From positions 1 through 42,179 of the forward strand of contig JANYKT010000194.1 in assembly GCA_025358085.1 (NCBI GenBank): a DNA stretch of 42,179 bases, read 5' to 3'. Below are positions 25,088 to 36,062 of the stretch, piece by piece. Every line of letters begins with the position of its first letter. Position 1 is the stretch's first letter. The DNA is from Deltaproteobacteria bacterium. GTDB taxonomy: Bacteria > Myxococcota > Myxococcia > Myxococcales > 40CM-4-68-19. A model generated the notes under the pieces. The model was not told where the DNA came from, ran no database searches, and was given only the letters and a program-made list of their open reading frames with translations. Both the position numbers and the translations under genes were made by a program.

Positions 25088-25767
25088 CTACTTCAAGCCA
25101 CGGCTGTGCGGGTGCCGGACGTCCGTTCCGCGGACCATGTAGATGACCATCTCCGCGACGTTGGTGGCGTGGTCGCCGAGTCGCTCGAGGTGCTTGGCGA
25201 CGAACATCAGGCTGTTCGCGCGCCGGATGTTCCGCGAGTCCTCCATCATCAGCCCGAGCAGTTCATTGAAGAGGTTGTGGTAAAGCGCGTCCACCAGATC
25301 GTCGTCTTTGATGACGGTCTCGGCCCGAGCCGCGTCGCCGTCGACGAACGAGTCCAGCGCCGCCCGCAGCTGCTTCTGGCACAGCTCGGCGAGCTTCTGC
25401 AGGTCGTGCACCGGCCGCAGCGGCGGCGACTGGTTCAGGTCGATGGCGCGCTGGGCGATGTTGACCGCCAGGTCGCCGATGCGCTCGAGATCGACGACGA
25501 CCTTCAGCGCCGTGGTGATCAGGCGCAGGTCGCTCGCCGCGGGTTGGCGCAGCGCGAGCAGGCGCCGGCAGGTCTCGTCGACGATGACCTCCAGCCGGTT
25601 CACCTCGCGGTCGGCGTCGAGCACTTCTTCGGCAACTTTGGAGTCCCGCTCGGCGAGCGCCCGCATCGACAGCGCGATCTCGTTCTCCACCTTACCGCCC
25701 AGCGTGAGCAGCTTCGCGCGCAGCTCGTCCAGCTCCTTGTCGTACGACTTGTCGGTGTGAACCTTGG

Positions 25768-25771
<4 letters not shown>
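25088..25771 (-). CDS. phoU: Phosphate signalling regulator PhoU
   Basis: A 227-residue PhoU. It has the two-fold three-helix repeat of the family, with metal-binding ExxxD patterns in RLEVIVDE near residue 65 and [13 protein letters not shown] near residue 195, and [12 protein letters not shown] in the first half. PhoU inhibits PstSCAB-driven signalling through PhoR when phosphate is sufficient. Its ATG (25771) overlaps the pstB stop as ATGA, so it is the last gene of the phoBR-pst cluster. Length and sequence look complete. Confidence 0.93.
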
Positions 25772-26510
<739 letters not shown>

Positions 26511-26514
<4 letters not shown>

Positions 26515-27347
26515 CGTGCCGTCCCGAAGCGGTTGCGCGCGAGCGCCTTGGCAATGAGCGACAGCGCGCCGACCAGCAGCAACAGCACCAGCGCCGCGCC
26601 CCACGCCTTCTGGTGCCAGTCTTGGTAGGGACTGACGGCGTAGTTGTAGATCTGGACCGTCAGTGAGGCGGTCGGCTGGTCGGCCTTGAAGTTCCAGTAT
26701 TGATTGTTCAGCGCGGTGAAGAGCAGCGGCGCGGTCTCGCCCGCGGCGCGCGCGATGGACAGGAGCACCGCGGTGACGATGCCGCCCAGCGCGGTTCGCA
26801 GCACCACGCGCAGCGACGTGCGCCACTGCGGCACGCCGAGCGCCAGCGACGCCTCGCGCAGCGAGCCCGGCACCAGCCGCACCAGCTCCTCGGTCGACCG
26901 CGCGAGGGCGGGGATCATCAGGACGGCGAGGGCCACGCCGCCGGCCAGCGCGGAGAAGCGATGCATCGGGAGCACCACGAGGCCATAGGCGACGATGCCG
27001 ACCACGATTGAGGGAACGCCCGAGAGCACCTCGGCGGTGAAGCGGACCGCGTCGCCGGTGCGGCCGTTGCCGCGCTCGGCGAGAAAGACGCCCGCGCCAA
27101 CTCCGACCGGGACACCCAGGATGCAGCCGATGCCGACCATGGAGAGCGTCCCGAGGATGGCATTGCCGACGCCGCCGCCGGTCTCGCCCACCGGCGCGGG
27201 CAGCTGGGTGAAAAAGTCGAGGTTGAGCGCGGGAGCGCCCCGCGAGATCACCAGCCAGAGGATCGAGCCGAGCGGGATCAGCGCCAGCAAGAGTCCGAAG
27301 CCGCAGAGCGCCGTCATGAGGTGGTTGACCAGCCGGCGCCGCTTCAT
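26511..27347 (-). CDS. pstA: Phosphate ABC transporter permease PstA
   Basis: A 278-residue inner-membrane permease. Six hydrophobic segments are visible, the first at [18 protein letters not shown]. The coupling loop is [22 protein letters not shown] near residue 175, and [16 protein letters not shown] is the typical PstA loop ahead of the permease core. Its start overlaps the pstC stop (ATGA, 27344-27347). With PstC it forms the channel that takes phosphate from PstS. Confidence 0.94.
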
Positions 27348-28312
27348 GCCGCCACCCGAGCGGGGCCCTTTTGCGACACGCGCACCAGCAGGCGCGCGAT
27401 CACGTTGAGCAGCAGCGTGACCGCGAAGAGGATCAGGCCCAGCGCCGCGAGCGCGCCGGTCTGCAGCGAGCCGCTTGCCTCGGCGAACTCGTTCGCGATC
27501 ACCGCAGGCAGCGAATAGCCCGGGGCGAAGAGCGACGCAGAGATGGTCGGCGAATTGCCGATGACCATGGTGACCGCCATGGTCTCGCCGAGTGCGCGGC
27601 CAAGCCCCAGGATGGTCGCGCCGACGATGCCGGCGCGAGAATAGGGAAGGACCGCGATGCGGATGGCCTCCCAGCGCGTCGCGCCCAGCGCCAGCGCGGC
27701 CTCGCGCAGCGATCCCGGCACCGTGCGCAGCACCTCGATGCTGATGGTCGTAATCGTCGGAAGGATCATGATCGCCAGGATCACGCCCGCGGCGAGATAG
27801 CCAAGCCCGATGGGCGCTCCCGAGAAGAGCGGAAAATGCGTGCGGGCGAGCCACGGCTCGATCGGCTTGCGCAGGAGCGGCACCAGCACGAACAGTCCCC
27901 AGAGCCCATAGACGACGCTGGGAATCCCGGCGAGCAGGGAGATGGGAAACGACACCACGACGCGCAGCCTCGCCGGCGCCATCTCGGTGAGGAACACCGC
28001 GAGCCCCACCGATACGGGAAGCGCGATGATCAGCGCAACCGCGCTCGTGACCAGCGTGCCGTAGATGAAGGGCAGGGCGCCGTACAGGTCGCGCGTGACA
28101 TCCCACTGGCGGCTGCCGACGAAGTTCCAGAGGCCGAGTGTCTTCACCGCGGGCGCGGCCACGAACCAGAGCGCGCCGACGATGACGCCCGCGACCACCA
28201 GCACGGCCGCGCCGAAGACCGTCAGGGAGACGGCCCAGGCGCGGTCGGGAAGGTTGGTGCGCGAAGAGCGGCCGCCGGAGGGCTCCGCGTGGCGCGCTGC
28301 CACCTCGCCCAT
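27344..28312 (-). CDS. pstC: Phosphate ABC transporter permease PstC
   Basis: A 322-residue permease with six or seven hydrophobic segments. The N-terminus is cytoplasmic up to about residue 25, then [20 protein letters not shown]. The region W.FV.S..WDV.....G..PFIYGTL, and [22 protein letters not shown] with [16 protein letters not shown], are PstC hallmarks. The start at 28312 (ATG) lies four bases after the pstS stop; a TTG at 28333 would overlap pstS and is less likely. Confidence 0.94.
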
Positions 28313-28316
28313 GAAG

Positions 28317-29336
28317 TTACTTGCCGGCCGCAAGAACAGGCTTCCCTTGCACCGTCATCTTCCTGAGCGTGGCATCGACCTTCTTGGTCAGCGCGTGCGG
28401 CAGCGGAGAGTAATCGAGTGACGCGGCGCTCTTCTGCCCTTCATGCTCCGCCCACGAAATGAACTTGAGCAGGGCCGCGCCCTTCGCGGCATCGGCTTGA
28501 TCGCGATAGACGAGCAGATAGGTGAAGGCAGCAATGGGATATGCGCCGGAGCCGGAGGAGTCGGTGATCGAGACGCGATAGTCCTCGGGAACCTCGACCT
28601 TCGCGGCGGCTTCCGAGACGCTTTCGAGCGACGGCTTGACGAAGTGGCCGTCTTTGTTCTTCAGCTCAGCCATCTCGAGCTTGTTCTCGTTTGCATAAGC
28701 CAGCTCGACATATCCGATCGAACCCTCGGTCTGCTTCACGATGCCCGTGACGCCATCGTTGCCTTTGCCGCCCAGCCCGGCTGGCCAGCTGACACTCTTG
28801 CCCGCGCCCGGCCCACTCTTCCATTCAGGCGAGACCTTGGCGAGGTAGTCGGTAAACACCGAGGTGGTGCCAGATCCGTCCGAGCGGTGCGCGACGCTGA
28901 TGACCGTGTCCGGCAACCCTTGGTTGTTTTTGGCCAGCGCCGGGTCGTTCCACTTGGTGATCTTGCCGAGAAAGATCAAGGCCAGCGTCTCGGGGGTGAG
29001 CTTGAGGTTCTTCACGCCCGGCGCGTTGTAGACCACCACCACGGCGCCCATCACCGTAGGGATGTGCTGGATGCCTGCGGCCTTCTTCATCTCGTCTTCG
29101 GTCATCGGCGCGTCGCTCGCGCCAAAGTCGACGGTCTTCTCGGTGATCTGCTTGATGCCGCCGCCCGAGCCGATCGCCTGGTAGTTGATCTGCACCTCGG
29201 GGTGCGCCTTGTTGTAGTCGCTGAACCACTTCGAATAGAGGGGTGCCGGAAAGGTCGCTCCCGCGCCGGTGATGGAGAGCGTATCGGCGGCGACAGCGGG
29301 AAACGCAATCAGCAGCGCGAGAATGAGCTTTGTCAT
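28317..29336 (-). CDS. pstS: Periplasmic phosphate-binding protein PstS
   Basis: A 339-residue substrate-binding protein with a signal peptide (MTKLILALLIAFPAVAA, cleavage near residue 17). Phosphate-binding features are complete: TGAGATFPAPLYSKW, GSGGGIKQI, DFGASDAPM, and the loop HRSDGSGTTSVF near residue 155. The start at 29336 is chosen because it opens the signal peptide. A Pho-box-like site lies at 29362-29379, just upstream. A second, degraded PstS-like gene lies at 32838-33668. Confidence 0.95.
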   Translation of the reverse strand: MTKLILALLIAFPAVAADTLSITGAGATFPAPLYSKWFSDYNKAHPEVQINYQAIGSGGGIKQITEKTVDFGASDAPMTEDEMKKAAGIQHIPTVMGAVVVVYNAPGVKNLKLTPETLALIFLGKITKWNDPALAKNNQGLPDTVISVAHRSDGSGTTSVFTDYLAKVSPEWKSGPGAGKSVSWPAGLGGKGNDGVTGIVKQTEGSIGYVELAYANENKLEMAELKNKDGHFVKPSLESVSEAAAKVEVPEDYRVSITDSSGSGAYPIAAFTYLLVYRDQADAAKGAALLKFISWAEHEGQKSAASLDYSPLPHALTKKVDATLRKMTVQGKPVLAAGK

Positions 29337-29361
29337 AAGCGGGGCTTGTAGCGTTTTCGGT

Positions 29362-29379
29362 GTGGCGGTCTTGTGACAG
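29362..29379 (-). promoter_or_regulatory. Candidate Pho box upstream of pstS
   Basis: On the minus strand CTGTCAC (29379-29373) is followed, 11 bases start to start, by CCGCCAC (29368-29362). The first half is a full match to the Pho-box heptamer CTGTCA(T/C), the second a five-of-seven match. The spacing equals one helix turn, as PhoB dimer sites need. No third unit is seen. It stands 26 bases before the pstS ATG, which is close, so the role is less certain than for the site at 36542. Confidence 0.5.
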
Positions 29380-29392
29380 GGTTGCAATCAAT

Positions 29393-30562
29393 TCATGACG
29401 GCGCGCCGGGAAGCTTTACCCAGAACCGGCTGCCGCCCTGGCCGCTCTCGACGCCAGCGCGCCCGCCCTGCGCTTGCGCCAGGTGCTTGACGATGGAAAG
29501 GCCAAGCCCCGTGCCGCCAGCCGCACGGGCGCGTCCGTTGTCTGCCCGGTAGAAGCGCTCGAAGACTCGTTGCTGGTGGCGAGGCTCGATGCCGGGCCCG
29601 GTATCGATGACCGACAGCACCACGCTCTGTCCGCCGCCGTCGGCGAGGACGGTCACGCGGCCGCCCTCCGGTGTGTACTTGATCGCGTTGTCGAGCAGGT
29701 TGACGAGGATCTGCTCGAGCGCGCGGCGATCGGCGACGGCGCGCAAGGCAGGCGGGCCGTCGAACCCGAGCGCGATCTGCTTCGCGGTGGCCTTGTCGCG
29801 CACCAGGTCGAGGCAGGTCTCGCAGACAGGCCCGACCTCGAGAGGCCCGAGTTGGGGACGGAAATCCCCGGACTCGAGGCGCGAGAGGTCGAGCAAGTCG
29901 TGCGTCAGCCTCGAGAGCCGCTCGGCGTGGCGCGCGATGATCTCGATGAAGCCGCGCACGCCGTCGTCCAGCTGCAAGGAGCCCGTCAGCAGAGTCTCGG
30001 CCGCGCCGCTGATGGCGGTTACGGGAGTGCGCAATTCGTGGCTCGCGTTGGCGATGAAGTCCCGGCGCACGCCTTCGAGGCGCTTGCTCTCGGTGAGGTC
30101 GCGCACCGTCAGGAGCGCGCGACTATGAGAAAGGGGCGAAAGCGTCGCCTGCACCAGCTTCTGCGGCGAGGGCAAGTTGAACTCGCCGCGCGCCGGCCAT
30201 CCGGCGATGGCGCGCTGCGCAGCTTCCGCGAGCTCGCCGCTGCGCGTCGCCTCGAGCAGCGTGCGCCCCAGCGTGCGCCCCTCGCCGAAGAGGTTCGAGA
30301 GCGGCGTATTTGCCACCGCGATCCGGCCCGACGGGTCGAGAATGCCGGCCGGATCCGGCCAGCCATCCACGAGCTCCTGCGCGCCTGGCTGCGGCGCTCC
30401 CGCGACGTACGACGCAGCCGGAACCTCGGATTGCAGGAGCCGCGAGAGCTGCACGATTTCGACCGGCGGCTTGAGGCGAACCTCGCCGCTGGCCAGCTCG
30501 GCCTTGACCGCTTCCAGCGCCTCCTCGAGTGTGACCCGCCGCCAGAAGAGAGCCATGGTCAC
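29393..30562 (-). CDS. phoR: Histidine kinase PhoR
   Basis: A 389-residue sensor kinase that pairs with PhoB. A PAS-type domain (AGILDPSGRIAVANTPLSNLF, about residues 73-93) is followed by the dimerisation helix with the phosphoacceptor motif FIANASHELRTPVTAI (His near residue 173). The N box is ILVNLLDNAIKYTPEGG, the G1 box VIDTGPGIE, then FERFYR, and the G2 box GGTGLGLSIVKH. No transmembrane helix is present, which differs from most PhoR proteins, so it must sense PhoU/Pst in the cytoplasm or lack the usual membrane anchor. The GTG at 30562 overlaps the phoB stop; an ATG at 30556 is equally possible. Confidence 0.92.
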   Translation of the reverse strand: MTMALFWRRVTLEEALEAVKAELASGEVRLKPPVEIVQLSRLLQSEVPAASYVAGAPQPGAQELVDGWPDPAGILDPSGRIAVANTPLSNLFGEGRTLGRTLLEATRSGELAEAAQRAIAGWPARGEFNLPSPQKLVQATLSPLSHSRALLTVRDLTESKRLEGVRRDFIANASHELRTPVTAISGAAETLLTGSLQLDDGVRGFIEIIARHAERLSRLTHDLLDLSRLESGDFRPQLGPLEVGPVCETCLDLVRDKATAKQIALGFDGPPALRAVADRRALEQILVNLLDNAIKYTPEGGRVTVLADGGGQSVVLSVIDTGPGIEPRHQQRVFERFYRADNGRARAAGGTGLGLSIVKHLAQAQGGRAGVESGQGGSRFWVKLPGAPS

Positions 30563-31257
30563 TTCTCGCTGGGGTCGATCATGCGGTAGCCGGCGCCGCG
30601 GACGGTCTCGATCAGGTCGCGCGCCTCACCCAGCTTTTCGCGCAGGCGTTTGACGTGCGTGTCCACGGTCCGCGTCTGGAGGCCGGTAGAGAAGCCCCAC
30701 ACGTCGCGCAGGAGCGTCTCGCGCGGCTGCAGGCAGCCGACGCGCGACATGAACGTCGCGAGCAACTTGAACTCCAGCGCGGTCAGCTGGATCTCCTCCG
30801 CGCCGACGTAGGCGCGATGGGCGTCGGCGTCCACGCGCACCGGGCCGACCTTGTCCTGGAGGCTGTCCGCCTCGCCGGAAGGGCCGCGCCGCAGCACGGC
30901 CTTGATGCGCAACAGCAGCTCGCGGACGCTGAACGGCTTGGTGACGAAGTCGTCCGCGCCCAGCTCGAATCCCACCACTCGATCGATCTCTTCGCTGCGC
31001 GCGGTGACCATGATGACCGGCACGTGCTTCGTCCGCGGCGAGGTTTTCAGCTGCTTGCAGATCTCGGTGCCCGAGATGTCCGGGAGCATGAGATCGAGCA
31101 GCACCAGATCCGGGACTCTTTCCTTGATGCGCTCGAGGGCCTGCTCGCCGTCCTGCGCGAAAGACGTCTCGTGCCCGGCCTGCCTGAGATTGAATTGCAG
31201 CAGATCGACCAGGTCACGCTCGTCTTCGACAATCAGGATCTGGGCCATGGGGGTCAT
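30559..31257 (-). CDS. phoB: Response regulator PhoB
   Basis: A 232-residue OmpR-class regulator. The receiver domain has the acidic pair (VEDERD), the phosphorylated Asp in LVLLDLMLPD (about residue 55), the TAR motif and the Lys in DDFVTKPFS. The winged helix (about residues 130-228) has ALEFKLLATFMS and TRTVDTHVKRLREKLG. It binds Pho boxes upstream of pst and phosphatase genes when phosphorylated by PhoR. A direct repeat with 11-base spacing (ATGTGGC 31272-31278; ATGTGCC 31283-31289) sits just ahead of the gene and could be an autoregulatory site, though it lacks the TCA core. Confidence 0.93.
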   Translation of the reverse strand: MTPMAQILIVEDERDLVDLLQFNLRQAGHETSFAQDGEQALERIKERVPDLVLLDLMLPDISGTEICKQLKTSPRTKHVPVIMVTARSEEIDRVVGFELGADDFVTKPFSVRELLLRIKAVLRRGPSGEADSLQDKVGPVRVDADAHRAYVGAEEIQLTALEFKLLATFMSRVGCLQPRETLLRDVWGFSTGLQTRTVDTHVKRLREKLGEARDLIETVRGAGYRMIDPSEK

Positions 31258-31405: not shown

Positions 31406-32209
31406 ATGAAGATCGCTCATCTTTCGGATCTACATATCGGGCAGAACGCAGCGCGGGTTGCGGCGGCGCGCCAACTGGTCGAGTCGCTGCGCGTCGAGGA
31501 CGTCGATCTCGTGGTGGTGAGTGGCGACGTCACACACCGCGGACGGTGGAGCGAGTTCTGGGAATTCTCGCGCATCATGGCGCCCATCGTCGGCAAGATC
31601 GTCACCGTCCCCGGCAACCACGACCGTCTGGGGGATGACGTGGGCGAGGCGTTGATGCCCGGCTTCCGCGTCCACGCACGAGCCCATGGGGCGGCGTGGG
31701 TGGTGCGCTTCAACTCGACGGGTCCGCACAACCGCCGCTGGCTCGATGGGCACGGGCTGCTCACGCAAGGCGATGTCCAGGACATCGAGCAGGCGTTGCG
31801 CGCCGGTCCTCGCGGCGCGGCGCGGCTGCTCGTCATGCACCACCATCCCCTGCCGCTGCCCGACGAGCACGTCATGGAGAAGCTCGTGACCAGGCTGGGC
31901 TGGCCCAACGCACGCGAGCTTGCCCGCGGACCCGAGCTGATCGAGAAACTTCGCTTCTCCTGCGACGCCGTTCTCCATGGTCACCGCCATGTGCCCGCGG
32001 AGACCGCGCCCTTCCCCGGCGAACCGCTCCGCGTCTTCAACGGCGGCAGCAGCACCGAGCTTTTGCGTTGCCGCATCCTGCGCTGGACCGGCGGCGAATT
32101 CGAGTCGCGCTGGCTCGAGGGCAGGTCGATCCCGGAAGCATCGCCCCGGTCCGCGGCCGCGGACCTCGTCGAGCTGCCCGGTGCCGATGGGCAGCTCCTT
32201 CCCTGCTAG
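31406..32209 (+). CDS. Calcineurin-like metallophosphoesterase
   Basis: A 267-residue cytoplasmic phosphoesterase with all metal motifs: DLHIG, GDVTHRG, GNHDR, HHHPLPLP and HGHRH. Enzymes of this form (CpdA/UDP-diacylglucosamine hydrolase-like fold) split cyclic nucleotides or other phosphodiesters with two metal ions; the substrate is not known here. A GGAGG run 5 bases ahead backs the ATG at 31406. The gene is divergent from phoB, sharing a 148-base intergenic space, and is followed after 31 bases by the PhoR-like fragment gene, with which it may form an operon. Confidence 0.9.
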   Translation: MKIAHLSDLHIGQNAARVAAARQLVESLRVEDVDLVVVSGDVTHRGRWSEFWEFSRIMAPIVGKIVTVPGNHDRLGDDVGEALMPGFRVHARAHGAAWVVRFNSTGPHNRRWLDGHGLLTQGDVQDIEQALRAGPRGAARLLVMHHHPLPLPDEHVMEKLVTRLGWPNARELARGPELIEKLRFSCDAVLHGHRHVPAETAPFPGEPLRVFNGGSSTELLRCRILRWTGGEFESRWLEGRSIPEASPRSAAADLVELPGADGQLLPC

Positions 32210-32240: not shown

Positions 32241-32807
32241 ATGCACGCAACAGAGCCCAACCTCGTCGATTTCACCGCTCTGCTCCCGGTGATCCATGCG
32301 CTCCCCGAAGCCGCCGGGCTGGTGGACTCGCATGGACGCCTCTGTGCTGCCAACTCCCAGCTGGTGCAGCTCTTCGGCGCGCCGTTCTGCGGACGCACCC
32401 TCCTGGAACTCACCGGGAGCGAACCGCTCTTCGAGGCTGCGGCGCGCGCGCTTGGTGGCGCCGGCTGCCTGCTCGCGCTGGAGCTTCCTCTGCTCGAGCG
32501 AACCTGGCAGGTGCGCCTGGCGCCGCTGCGGCCCGGCGTGGTTTTGCTCGTCGTACGTGACCTGACCGGACCGCGGCGCGCGGCGGCGCTGCGCGACCGG
32601 CTGCTGGAGGGAGCGAGCGAAGAAGCTCGGGCGGCACTCTCCCGCATCACCGTCGCGACCGCGGCGCTGGGTGAGCTCGACACGCGCGCGCGGACGTTGG
32701 CGCAGATCGGCGCGCGTTCAGCCGAGCGACTCCAGGGCGTGATCGACGAGCTGATCGGGCTTGCGCGAGAGATGGGCGCGCCGCAGGTCGAGCTCTTGCG
32801 CAGGTGA
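32241..32807 (+). CDS. PhoR-like PAS protein lacking kinase function
   Basis: A 188-residue protein that looks like the first half of PhoR. The PAS part reads AAGLVDSHGRLCAANSQLVQLF, then GRTLLELTGSE and LLVVRDLTGPRRAAALRDRLL; the chromosomal PhoR has AGILDPSGRIAVANTPLSNLF, GRTLLEATRSGE and LLTVRDLTESKRLEGVRRDF in the same order. The dimerisation helix follows (residues 118-178), but the phosphoacceptor box SHELRT is replaced by SEEARA; no His is present there. The ATPase domain is absent, with a stop after residue 188. The ATG at 32241 has an AGGAAA run upstream. It could bind PhoR, PhoB or PhoU without phosphorylating; equally it may be a decaying duplicate. Confidence 0.72.
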   Translation: MHATEPNLVDFTALLPVIHALPEAAGLVDSHGRLCAANSQLVQLFGAPFCGRTLLELTGSEPLFEAAARALGGAGCLLALELPLLERTWQVRLAPLRPGVVLLVVRDLTGPRRAAALRDRLLEGASEEARAALSRITVATAALGELDTRARTLAQIGARSAERLQGVIDELIGLAREMGAPQVELLRR

Positions 32808-32837
32808 AGCAGCCAGGGCCGCGAAGCTGCGCATTCT

Positions 32838-33668
32838 TCAGTTCCGAATGGTGCCGAGTCGCTCGTCGACGAGGAGCACCACGAGCCCCGGCAACGGCGC
32901 CCAGCCCAGGGGCACTAGCCACCGCTGGCCGTCGTGGATGGCCCAGCGAAGATAGTCCATGACGGCCGCGGCGTTTTCAGGCTGCGAGGGGATGAGCGCG
33001 TACGCGAAGGCGGCGAGCGGATAGGAATCTGCTCCGCTTGCGTTGACAATCGAGACGCGGGAATCGGCTGGCAGCCGAAGCCCGACCGCCGCGCGTGTGA
33101 CGCTGTGCATGTTCGGCTGTACGAAGAATCCGTCATGGTTGCGAAGCGAGGCGATGTACAGGCTGGCGCGCCGCGCCACCGCCGCGTCGATCGCTCCCAG
33201 CGAGCCCTCCACTCGGGCGACGGCCGCCACGCCAGAATCCTTCGAGCGCGTCGCGCGCGGGCCCGCCCCGCCGTAAGGCGTAAGCCAGAGATCGAGCAAC
33301 TCGAGCGCCGCCGCGTCCTCGCGCACGATGGTGACAGGCACATCCGGGAGCTTCATGTCCGGGTTCTGGGCGGCGATGCGCGAGTCGCTCCACCGGGCGA
33401 TCTTTCCCTGATAGAGCGCCGCGAGCAGCTCGGGCGTGAGCCGCAGATCCCCAGCGACAAGCAAGTTATACGCGAGCGCCACGGCGCCTACCGCGATGGG
33501 AAGCTGCATCATCCCGTCCCTGGCGGGCGGAATCTCATCGGTCAGCGAGAGCCCTGTGCCCTCGCGCGCGCATTCGAAGCCCTTGTGCTCCAGGGACCAG
33601 CTTTGGGCCAAAGGCTGAAGCGAGGCGGCGCAGGGACCGTGGAGGATGAGTGCAATCAGGAGCAGCAT
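32838..33668 (-). CDS. Degenerate PstS-like exported protein
   Basis: A 276-residue protein with a short signal peptide (MLLLIALILHGPCAA). It aligns with PstS from the hinge on: VGAVALAYN, then LTPELLAALYQGKIARWSD, HDGFFVQPN, and SGADSYPLAAFAYALI in the C-terminal lobe, matching the PstS stretches MGAVVVVYN, LTPETLALIFLGKITKWND, KDGHFVKPS and SGSGAYPIAAFTYLLV. The N-terminal loop (TGAGATFP, GSGGG) is missing, and the phosphate loop RSDGSGTTS is replaced by REDAAALEL. It should not bind phosphate as PstS does. Its start codon at 33668 is 142 bases from the divergent sigma-factor fragment. Confidence 0.75.
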   Translation of the reverse strand: MLLLIALILHGPCAASLQPLAQSWSLEHKGFECAREGTGLSLTDEIPPARDGMMQLPIAVGAVALAYNLLVAGDLRLTPELLAALYQGKIARWSDSRIAAQNPDMKLPDVPVTIVREDAAALELLDLWLTPYGGAGPRATRSKDSGVAAVARVEGSLGAIDAAVARRASLYIASLRNHDGFFVQPNMHSVTRAAVGLRLPADSRVSIVNASGADSYPLAAFAYALIPSQPENAAAVMDYLRWAIHDGQRWLVPLGWAPLPGLVVLLVDERLGTIRN

Positions 33669-33810
33669 CCGCGGATTAGAACCCGAAGCGGGCGTGGCAA
33701 ACGCAACGGTCTCGTGTCGCGACGGTTACAACGGATCCAGGACGGCGGCCGCTGACCGCAGCCTTGGGAAATTGTAAGGCTTGGCTGCGCGGCGGCCACT
33801 CACCTCTCCG

Positions 33811-34146
33811 ATGCCCCCGCCAGCCGAAAATCTGCCCTTGTTCCAAAGCTGGCTGTCGGCTCATCGCGGGATCGTCGTCAAGGTCGCGCGCTCCTTCGCC
33901 TCGTCGCCCGCAGACGTCAAAGACCTCCAGCAAGAGCTGCTTCTGCAGCTGTGGTTGTCGCTGCCGAATTTTGCCGGCCAAGCCAAGCCGTCCACCTGGA
34001 TCTACCGCGTCTGCCTCAACACCGCGCTGATGTTCCGACGCGGAGCTGCGCGGAGGGACCGGCGCCTCGCTCCGACGTGCCCTTACTCCTCGTCTCCCGG
34101 GACGACGCTCTCCATCAACTTGAAGAAGACGTCCGTGTTCCTTTGA
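33811..34146 (+). pseudogene. ECF sigma factor fragment (region 2 only)
   Basis: About 85 residues match region 2 of an ECF sigma-70 factor: FQSWLSAHRGIVVKVARSF, ADVKDLQQELLLQLWLSL, and STWIYRVCLNTALMFRR, the core- and -10-binding helices. Region 4, needed for -35 recognition, is absent. Around 34075 the sequence changes to a tail that is only the reverse complement of the alkaline phosphatase end. So the 3' part was lost at a rearrangement junction; the fragment is unlikely to work as a sigma factor but could bind RNA polymerase or an anti-sigma factor. The start at 33811 (ATG) is tentative. Confidence 0.72.
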
Positions 34147-36062
34147 ACGCCAACGAATTTACGCCAGGCTTGGCTCCCGGAGCTGTAAGCGGAGATCGGA
34201 ATGTCCGACGCAGTGTGAACGGCGTTCGTCACGCCGCCCGCCTGCCCGCGAATGAAGAATCCGTTGGCGTCTTCCCGGTTTCCCTTGGTACCGCGTTCGG
34301 CCGGCTCTTTTACATATGCCTTGCCTGTCAGCTCGGTCTTGAAGCTGGCCGGAAGAAGGCTGTCGATCACCGGCTGTGGGCGCGTCAGCCAGGTCTCGTA
34401 CCGATCGGCGCTCGCGCCGTAGCCGAACAGCAGCTTTCCGTCGATATCCTGCGAGGCCGGAAAGCCGTCCGGTTGAATATCGTAATGCGGAAAGCCCGCC
34501 GCATCGTAGGTGCCGACCACCTTCTGCCGTTCAGGCGTCGCGGTCGGGTCGTTGTTGGCGGCGTCGGAAGGGAGCGCCTGGAGCGCAGCGACGCCGCCGT
34601 GCAGCGCGCCGATGATGCTGAAGCCAGAGCACTCGTGATCCGCAACAACGATTACGACCGTGTTGCCAAGCTTGTCGGCCCAGTTCTTCGCCACGCCGAC
34701 GGCGCGATCGAACTCGATCACCTCGCCTACCGCCCGCTCCGCGTCCATCAGATGCGACTGCTTGTCGATGTGCGCGCCCTCCACCATGAGGAAAAAACCC
34801 TTCTTGTTCTTGCTCAGCACCTGCAGCGCTGCGTCCGCCATCTCGTCCAGCATCGGCTGGTCAGGGGCGTGATAGTCGTCCACGATTCCGCTCTGGCCGG
34901 GGTTGCGACGCTTGGCGATCTTGTCGAGTGCGACGTTCATATTGCCGTACCCGAAGAGGCCGAGCAGTCTGGAAGGAGACCTGCCAGCAGCGTTCGACAG
35001 GTTGCTGGCGGTATCTGCGTAATCAAAGCCTGCCTTCTGAAAGTCGGCGATCAGATCGCGATTCGGGTCGATGGCGCCCGCGCCGGGGATGTTCCATGCT
35101 GCCCGCAGGTCGGCAGGCAGTCCGTCATAGTCGTTCTTGCTGCCGCGGCTGGAGCCCACCTCGGTCGAGGGCAGAAACCAGCGCCGCCCGCCGCCCATCA
35201 ATACCCTCAAGCCGGTGTTCTCGCTCTCGTCGAGATACTGGTCCACGATTCCCTGGCCCAGGTTGCGATCGCCGGTGTGGACGGCATTCGCGGCCGGAGT
35301 CGCATCCTCGATGTCGGCGGTGGTGATGATTCCTGTCGTGGTGCCCTTCACGCGATGCAGGTACTCGGCCATATACTCGATACGAGGCTGGTAGAATGGA
35401 TTGATTACGTTGGCTGGATACACGCCCTCCTGGCCATTCTGCGAATGGTTGCCCGTGGTGTAGCAGGCCATTCCCGGAGCGGAGTCCGTCACAATGCTAT
35501 TGAGGGAGTGCGTGCTGACCAGGCCTGTGCCGGGAAACTTGTCCATATTCAGGTAATCGTTCGGATCGCCCGCGGTGACCCCGTAGCGGACCAGCCGCGC
35601 CGCCGTCCGGTGCGCGATGCCCATGCCGTCGCCGAGCATGATGATGACGTTGCGCGTGCGCCCTTCGCCGTCCTCCTTCGGGCCCGCCGACTGGACCGCG
35701 AACGTCGCGCTCGCCGCCGCCGAACCGGTCGCATCGGTCACGGTAGCACTGACGGTGTGCCGGCCTGGGCGGCCGCTCGAGAAGCCGCGCAGGTTGAAGC
35801 CGCCAAACCCAGGCTTGGTGATGCCGTCGGTCGCGGCGGTCGGAGTGCCAGCGCTCAAAGGGGAGGTAAAGTCCTGCGTCTCGCCATCGATGTTTAATGT
35901 TGCGGAAAAGGGCGGCGTGCCCTTGGCCTCGACCCGGATGTCGAAGCGTTGACCGGGGAAGAAGCGTGCGCCGGACGGGGGCGTGACGGTGACGGTGGGG
36001 TTGGCGGCAGCCGCGCCGGCCAGGGCCAGAACGGCGAGCAACGAGTACAAGAGGGCTTTCAT
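34083..36062 (-). CDS. Alkaline phosphatase (PhoA-superfamily) with N-terminal Ig-like domain
   Basis: A 659-residue secreted phosphomonoesterase. The signal peptide (MKALLYSLLAVLALAGAAAA) is followed by a bacterial Ig-like domain (about residues 22-126). The alkaline phosphatase core follows: metal-binding IIMLGDGMG (Asp145), nucleophile in TDSAPGMACYTTG (Ser194), EGAHIDKQSH near residue 445, and VVADHECSG near residue 480. It frees phosphate from organic esters under starvation, matching its place next to the phoBR-pst cluster. It is translationally coupled to the upstream 146-residue gene (ATG at 36062 overlaps that stop as ATGA). It is convergent with the sigma-factor fragment. Confidence 0.9.
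   Translation of the reverse strand: MKALLYSLLAVLALAGAAAANPTVTVTPPSGARFFPGQRFDIRVEAKGTPPFSATLNIDGETQDFTSPLSAGTPTAATDGITKPGFGGFNLRGFSSGRPGRHTVSATVTDATGSAAASATFAVQSAGPKEDGEGRTRNVIIMLGDGMGIAHRTAARLVRYGVTAGDPNDYLNMDKFPGTGLVSTHSLNSIVTDSAPGMACYTTGNHSQNGQEGVYPANVINPFYQPRIEYMAEYLHRVKGTTTGIITTADIEDATPAANAVHTGDRNLGQGIVDQYLDESENTGLRVLMGGGRRWFLPSTEVGSSRGSKNDYDGLPADLRAAWNIPGAGAIDPNRDLIADFQKAGFDYADTASNLSNAAGRSPSRLLGLFGYGNMNVALDKIAKRRNPGQSGIVDDYHAPDQPMLDEMADAALQVLSKNKKGFFLMVEGAHIDKQSHLMDAERAVGEVIEFDRAVGVAKNWADKLGNTVVIVVADHECSGFSIIGALHGGVAALQALPSDAANNDPTATPERQKVVGTYDAAGFPHYDIQPDGFPASQDIDGKLLFGYGASADRYETWLTRPQPVIDSLLPASFKTELTGKAYVKEPAERGTKGNREDANGFFIRGQAGGVTNAVHTASDIPISAYSSGSQAWRKFVGVQRNTDVFFKLMESVVPGDEE

Follow-up and report, generated by a model that had tools for sequence, protein, structure and literature searches.

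The window analysed in this study, a contig of 42,179 bases (C107; 66% GC) from a myxobacterial genome of 5.4 Mb in 217 contigs, contains a complete Pho system and, close to it, two genes for partial paralogues of Pho components, which we refer to as PASX and PstX. PASX is a PhoR-like protein that lacks the phospho-accepting histidine and the ATPase domain, and PstX resembles PstS, except that each of its four phosphate-binding segments has been deleted or substituted. In both proteins, conservation is split by domain, unlike the uniform loss expected of neutral decay. Our best explanation, to which we assign a rough probability of 0.42, is that they are old paralogues of the Pho circuit in which the catalytic or ligand-binding half is gone and which have been retained as lineage-specific, binding-only modules. 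Alternatively, they may be fragments of an old phoR/pstS duplication that are slowly decaying and have stayed intact by chance, stop codons being rare in a high-GC genome. We consider such decay the less likely of the two, though by a small margin: for the pair as a whole, a function has a somewhat higher probability.

The genes of the Pho system are arranged on the minus strand in the order phoB-phoR-pstS-pstC-pstA-pstB-phoU, from position 31257 down to 25088. The phoB gene (30559–31257), the phoR gene (29393–30562; a soluble-type PAS-HisKA-HATPase protein) and the pstS gene (28317–29387) are all intact and are followed by pstC-pstA-pstB-phoU (25088–28333). A metallophosphoesterase gene (31406–32209, plus strand) diverges from phoB and lies 31 bp upstream of the PASX gene (32241–32807, plus strand; 188 aa, query P0001); judging from this arrangement, the two may be co-transcribed. 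The PstX gene (32838–33668, minus strand; 276 aa, query P0002) is convergent with the PASX gene, and 30 bp separate their stops. Both genes have full open frames, as described in the initial annotation. That annotation had also put forward a decayed duplicate of a phoR-pstS block as the plain alternative; however, the convergent orientation on opposite strands is unexpected for such a block, and the pair is therefore not a simple copy of it. The GC3 values of the PASX and PstX genes (0.81 and 0.82, respectively) and their codon bias are like those of the neighbouring genes, and this normal codon bias also argues against decay. On the side of decay, scans for the Pho-box consensus and for sigma-70 promoters yielded nothing above chance.

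The PstX gene is adjoined by a fragment of an ECF sigma factor gene (33781–34146, plus strand), which encodes region 2 (Pfam Sigma70_r2, 48 bits) without region 4 and whose end overlaps a convergent alkaline phosphatase gene (34083–36062, minus strand). This is the third partial gene in the series, and its presence fits a region that gathers gene fragments, as the decay explanation would have it. The alkaline phosphatase gene is unmatched in 11 family members, and the block may therefore have been gained recently.

PASX and the PhoR of the window share 38% identity across 166 residues (E=1e-23). Among curated families, PASX matches phoR (TIGR02966) best, although the score of 24.8 bits is far under the cut-off of 334. 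A PhoR-type PAS domain (32280–32564) is present and matches PAS_4 with an E-value of 4e-4, close to the 1.5e-4 obtained for the window's own PhoR. It is followed by the two dimerisation helices (32565–32774), which are strongly diverged. The H-box of PASX reads GASEEARAALSRI, as against NASHELRTPVTAI in PhoR. The site of the phospho-accepting histidine is occupied by Glu127 (GAA codon, 32619–32621), within ASEEARAA in place of ASHELRTP, and the H-box has additionally undergone the changes F to L, N to G, L to A, T to A and P to A. The helix that follows the H-box, where ordinary kinases contact the response regulator, has not been retained either, a point against the binding-module explanation. 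PASX ends at the boundary between the dimerisation and ATPase domains, after the second dimerisation helix; no HATPase_c match to Pfam was found in the protein, and no remnant of a PhoR ATPase was detected in the downstream DNA or near PASX. These results bear out the initial description of a PhoR-like PAS domain and dimerisation helix with SEEARA in place of SHELRT and no ATPase. The PASX gene is preceded by a ribosome-binding site, and the AlphaFold model of the protein consists of a PAS fold and two long helices (mean pLDDT 84).

PstX is 35% identical to the window's PstS over 247 residues (E=6e-44) and scores 131.5 bits against TIGR00975 (cut-off 205). The replacement of RSDGSGTTS by REDAAALEL (33297–33323, minus strand), which had been recognized at the outset, is accompanied by the loss of three further phosphate-binding segments, GAGATF, GSGGG and GASDAP. 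Only 5 of the 29 conserved columns of the four phosphate-binding motifs are kept in PstX, and no remnant of a PstS lobe I was found near the gene. AlphaFold nevertheless predicts with confidence a two-lobe class II binding-protein fold with a hinge (mean pLDDT 84). The model matches solved PstS proteins throughout, including PstS-1 of M. tuberculosis (7dm1; TM 0.88), and also matches 9k3x, the pretranslocation form of E. coli PstSCAB. In the model, residues 38–52 replace a lost helix and strand.

The signal peptide of PstX claimed in the initial annotation is doubtful. The N-terminus contains a short hydrophobic run, but no lysine or arginine precedes the hydrophobic stretch. No alternative ATG, GTG or TTG start is present upstream, and no clear ribosome-binding site was found. 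Residues 9–14 (33627–33644, minus strand), which form part of the claimed signal peptide, are modelled as strand beta1 of lobe I; therefore, the putative signal peptide is probably, at least in part, mature sequence. Export of PstX is uncertain, and this, like the poor start region, counts against the binding-module explanation.

We then expressed conservation as the retention of those columns that are conserved among ordinary PhoR or PstS proteins. The PAS domain of PASX retains 21 of 26 such columns, a figure that depends on few columns, and four ordinary PhoR proteins retain 72–87% in the same test. Its dimerisation helices retain only 20 of 47, whereas the same ordinary PhoRs retain 93–96% (91% for L016); the difference between the two parts of PASX is significant (p=0.0028). 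Trees of the separate domains give the same contrast: the end branch of PASX is 0.80 in the PAS tree, inside the PhoR range (maximum 1.13), and 2.47 in the tree of the dimerisation helices, where the PhoR maximum is 0.29. PstX, which the initial annotation had correctly described as keeping the hinge and C-lobe, retains 17 of 20 conserved columns in the hinge and first half of lobe II (77–100% in seven ordinary PstS proteins) and 22 of 34 in the return and C-terminal part. In its ligand-bearing segments, however, 9 of 61 conserved columns are kept (p=1.2e-9 versus the rest), a count that is partly due to a few deletions, each taking many columns, although the substituted columns there agree. 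Under plain decay, all domains should suffer alike, and this domain-split retention in both proteins is not what would be expected. The very long branches of both PASX and PstX in the whole-protein trees fit decay better. The PstS tree was built without row L051, which is badly cut. The AU test (p=0.25) could neither confirm nor reject PstX as sister of the window's own PstS; the long branch of PstX blurs its position in the tree.

The chance survival of the two frames was estimated by neutral simulation, in which the window's own phoR and pstS drifted to 65–42% amino-acid identity with frameshifts uncounted. The PASX region stayed stop-free in 6–43% of the runs, the upper value being reached at 75% GC; this gene, taken alone, could thus have stayed free of stops by chance. 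For the PstX region the proportion was 0.3–15%, and when the two ranges are combined, the joint chance does not exceed a few per cent, even before frameshifts are considered. Because of the domain-split retention, these simulations and the normal codon bias, we regard plain decay as less likely than a kept partial function; it retains some probability, mainly because few columns underlie the PAS figure.

The two genes need not share one fate. PASX alone may be functional, as a free PAS regulator that is perhaps co-transcribed with the metallophosphoesterase gene, with PstX being a decaying neighbour that has lost its signal peptide. The ribosome-binding site of PASX, its clean truncation at a domain boundary and its ordinary PAS conservation are in line with this possibility, as are the lack of a clear ribosome-binding site for PstX and the modelling of the PstX N-terminus as a strand. 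However, the evidence against neutral drift is stronger for PstX than for PASX, and PstX has a confident two-lobe fold; we therefore regard a function of PASX alone as rather unlikely.

Searches for truncated relatives of PASX and PstX covered 60 relatives, the 11 members of the family, 145 genomes from the order, 195 Myxococcota genomes and, at close range, the named genome collection (queries P0002 and P0004); all of them returned only ordinary PhoR and PstS proteins. The pair has thus been seen in one genome only. The initial annotation had taken close relatives lacking both genes as an argument against its proposal, and at the family level this is what we found: both are absent from 11 of 11 family members, a distribution that favours decay. 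Orthologues of the metallophosphoesterase gene are present in two family members (53–56% identical), and PASX is absent from beside the metallophosphoesterase gene in G011 and G008.

The communication between the Pst transporter, PhoU and PhoR is still disputed (PMC5775613, PMC12301784). Several findings bear on the possible role of a free PhoR-type PAS domain. In an E. coli two-hybrid assay, a PhoR fragment consisting of the N-terminus and the PAS domain, without the dimerisation and catalytic domains, binds PhoU, and residues 141–146 and 157–162 of the PAS domain are required for this binding (PMC4423584). In Salmonella, on the other hand, the PAS domain alone is insufficient for PhoU binding (PMC9239213). 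The mycobacterial orthologue of PhoR functions without a membrane part and requires its PAS domain (PMC12301784), and the PhoRs of this order likewise start without an evident membrane segment. Where PASX aligns with these PhoU-binding regions, 5–10 of 15–17 positions are kept, which is about the level of ordinary PhoRs (7–13 of 15–17). Given these retained segments and the literature on the PhoR PAS domain, PASX, a presumably cytoplasmic protein consisting of a free PhoR-type PAS domain and a dead pair of dimerisation helices, would most likely either cover the surface of PhoU to which the PhoR PAS domain binds or pair with PhoR via its PAS domain and dimerisation helices. In either case, it may alter the balance between kinase and phosphatase activity in the neighbouring PhoR or in a second PhoBR system encoded on another contig (C71; see below). 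We infer that the proteins are produced and that they bind partners at all; the direction of the effect is likewise inferred and would differ between the two modes, neither of which is favoured by the sequence. The default state of PhoR is kinase-on (PMC5775613). By holding PhoU, PASX would favour kinase-on PhoR and raise Pho output, whereas dampening would be expected if PASX paired with PhoR.

Judging from its residue losses, PstX is a PstS fold that would be unable to hold phosphate, while its hinge and lobe II are kept. Docking on PstCA, where it would be a partner blind to phosphate, is possible only if PstX is exported. The proposal of repurposed pseudo-components made in the initial annotation thus stands in part: it is favoured over decay by the domain split and by the low probability of stop-free drift in PstX, whereas its two specific roles are conjectural: for the decoy that dampens PhoR, a PhoU-bound PAS domain would be expected to raise PhoR kinase output instead, and for the periplasmic plug of PstCA, export is doubtful. 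The more elaborate scheme of a paired pseudo-sensor under selection, with PASX acting on PhoU or PhoR and PstX on PstCA to retune the Pho circuit jointly, appears distinctly unlikely to us. If it were true, it would place pseudo-enzyme regulation on both membrane sides of one two-component system. Very improbable, in our estimation, is a role outside this circuit, in which PASX would respond to its own ligand or redox state, signalling independently of PhoR and PhoU, and PstX would bind another ligand. The kept PAS core of PASX with its kinase parts lost, and the kept hinge and fold of PstX with its phosphate site lost, could be accommodated by such a role; however, the location beside phoBR-pst and the Pho homology of both proteins favour a Pho link, and PASX carries no output domain.

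PASX and PstX fall outside the PhoR and PstS families, because the defining features of both families were tested and are lacking. With PhoR (TIGR02966; PAS-HisKA-HATPase), PASX shares the PAS domain and the two dimerisation helices, but not the phospho-accepting histidine, the proline, threonine, asparagine and phenylalanine of the H-box, or the ATPase domain. With PstS (TIGR00975, Pfam PBP_like_2), PstX is predicted to share the two-lobe fold, the hinge and lobe II; in contrast to PstS, its lobe I is shorter, in addition to the missing phosphate-binding segments and the uncertain signal peptide. Among known systems, DivL retains its ATPase domain, with tyrosine replacing the histidine, whereas PASX consists of the PAS domain and helices only. 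DivL-type repurposed histidine kinases, in which a kinase relative is reused for binding or sensing instead of its ordinary output (PMC4211667), are analogues only. The analogy with the small DUF1127 proteins, accessory tuners that bind PhoR and adjust Pho output (PMC12501420), is functional only: the sequences are unrelated as far as known, and PASX is derived from PhoR itself. Literature searches on decoys formed by pseudo-histidine kinases and on the contact residues of PstSCAB returned nothing usable. PASX and PstX may represent dead paralogues reused as regulators, a kind already known; if they are under selection, the pair would exemplify such reuse for a bacterial nutrient sensor. A natural, kinase-free PhoR-PAS protein, encoded next to a PhoR from its own family, would also offer a ready test of whether a free PAS domain titrates PhoU or PhoR.

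The genome contains a second intact phoBR pair (L061:8532–10337; genome G000, contig C71), whose PhoB and PhoR are 66% and 59% identical, respectively, to those of the window, and the PhoR paralogy is therefore three-way. In the family, phoB without an adjacent phoR was observed in G002 and G010 (beside pstS in both) and in G008 (beside the metallophosphoesterase gene), at L064:7490–7963, L067:7920–8609 and L196:2697–3395; these three genomes have phoBR elsewhere. It is likely that phoR has been lost repeatedly within the family. In addition, phoR at L197:3726–4723 (G008, contig C69) is in two pieces in different frames, representing either a frameshift or a sequencing error.
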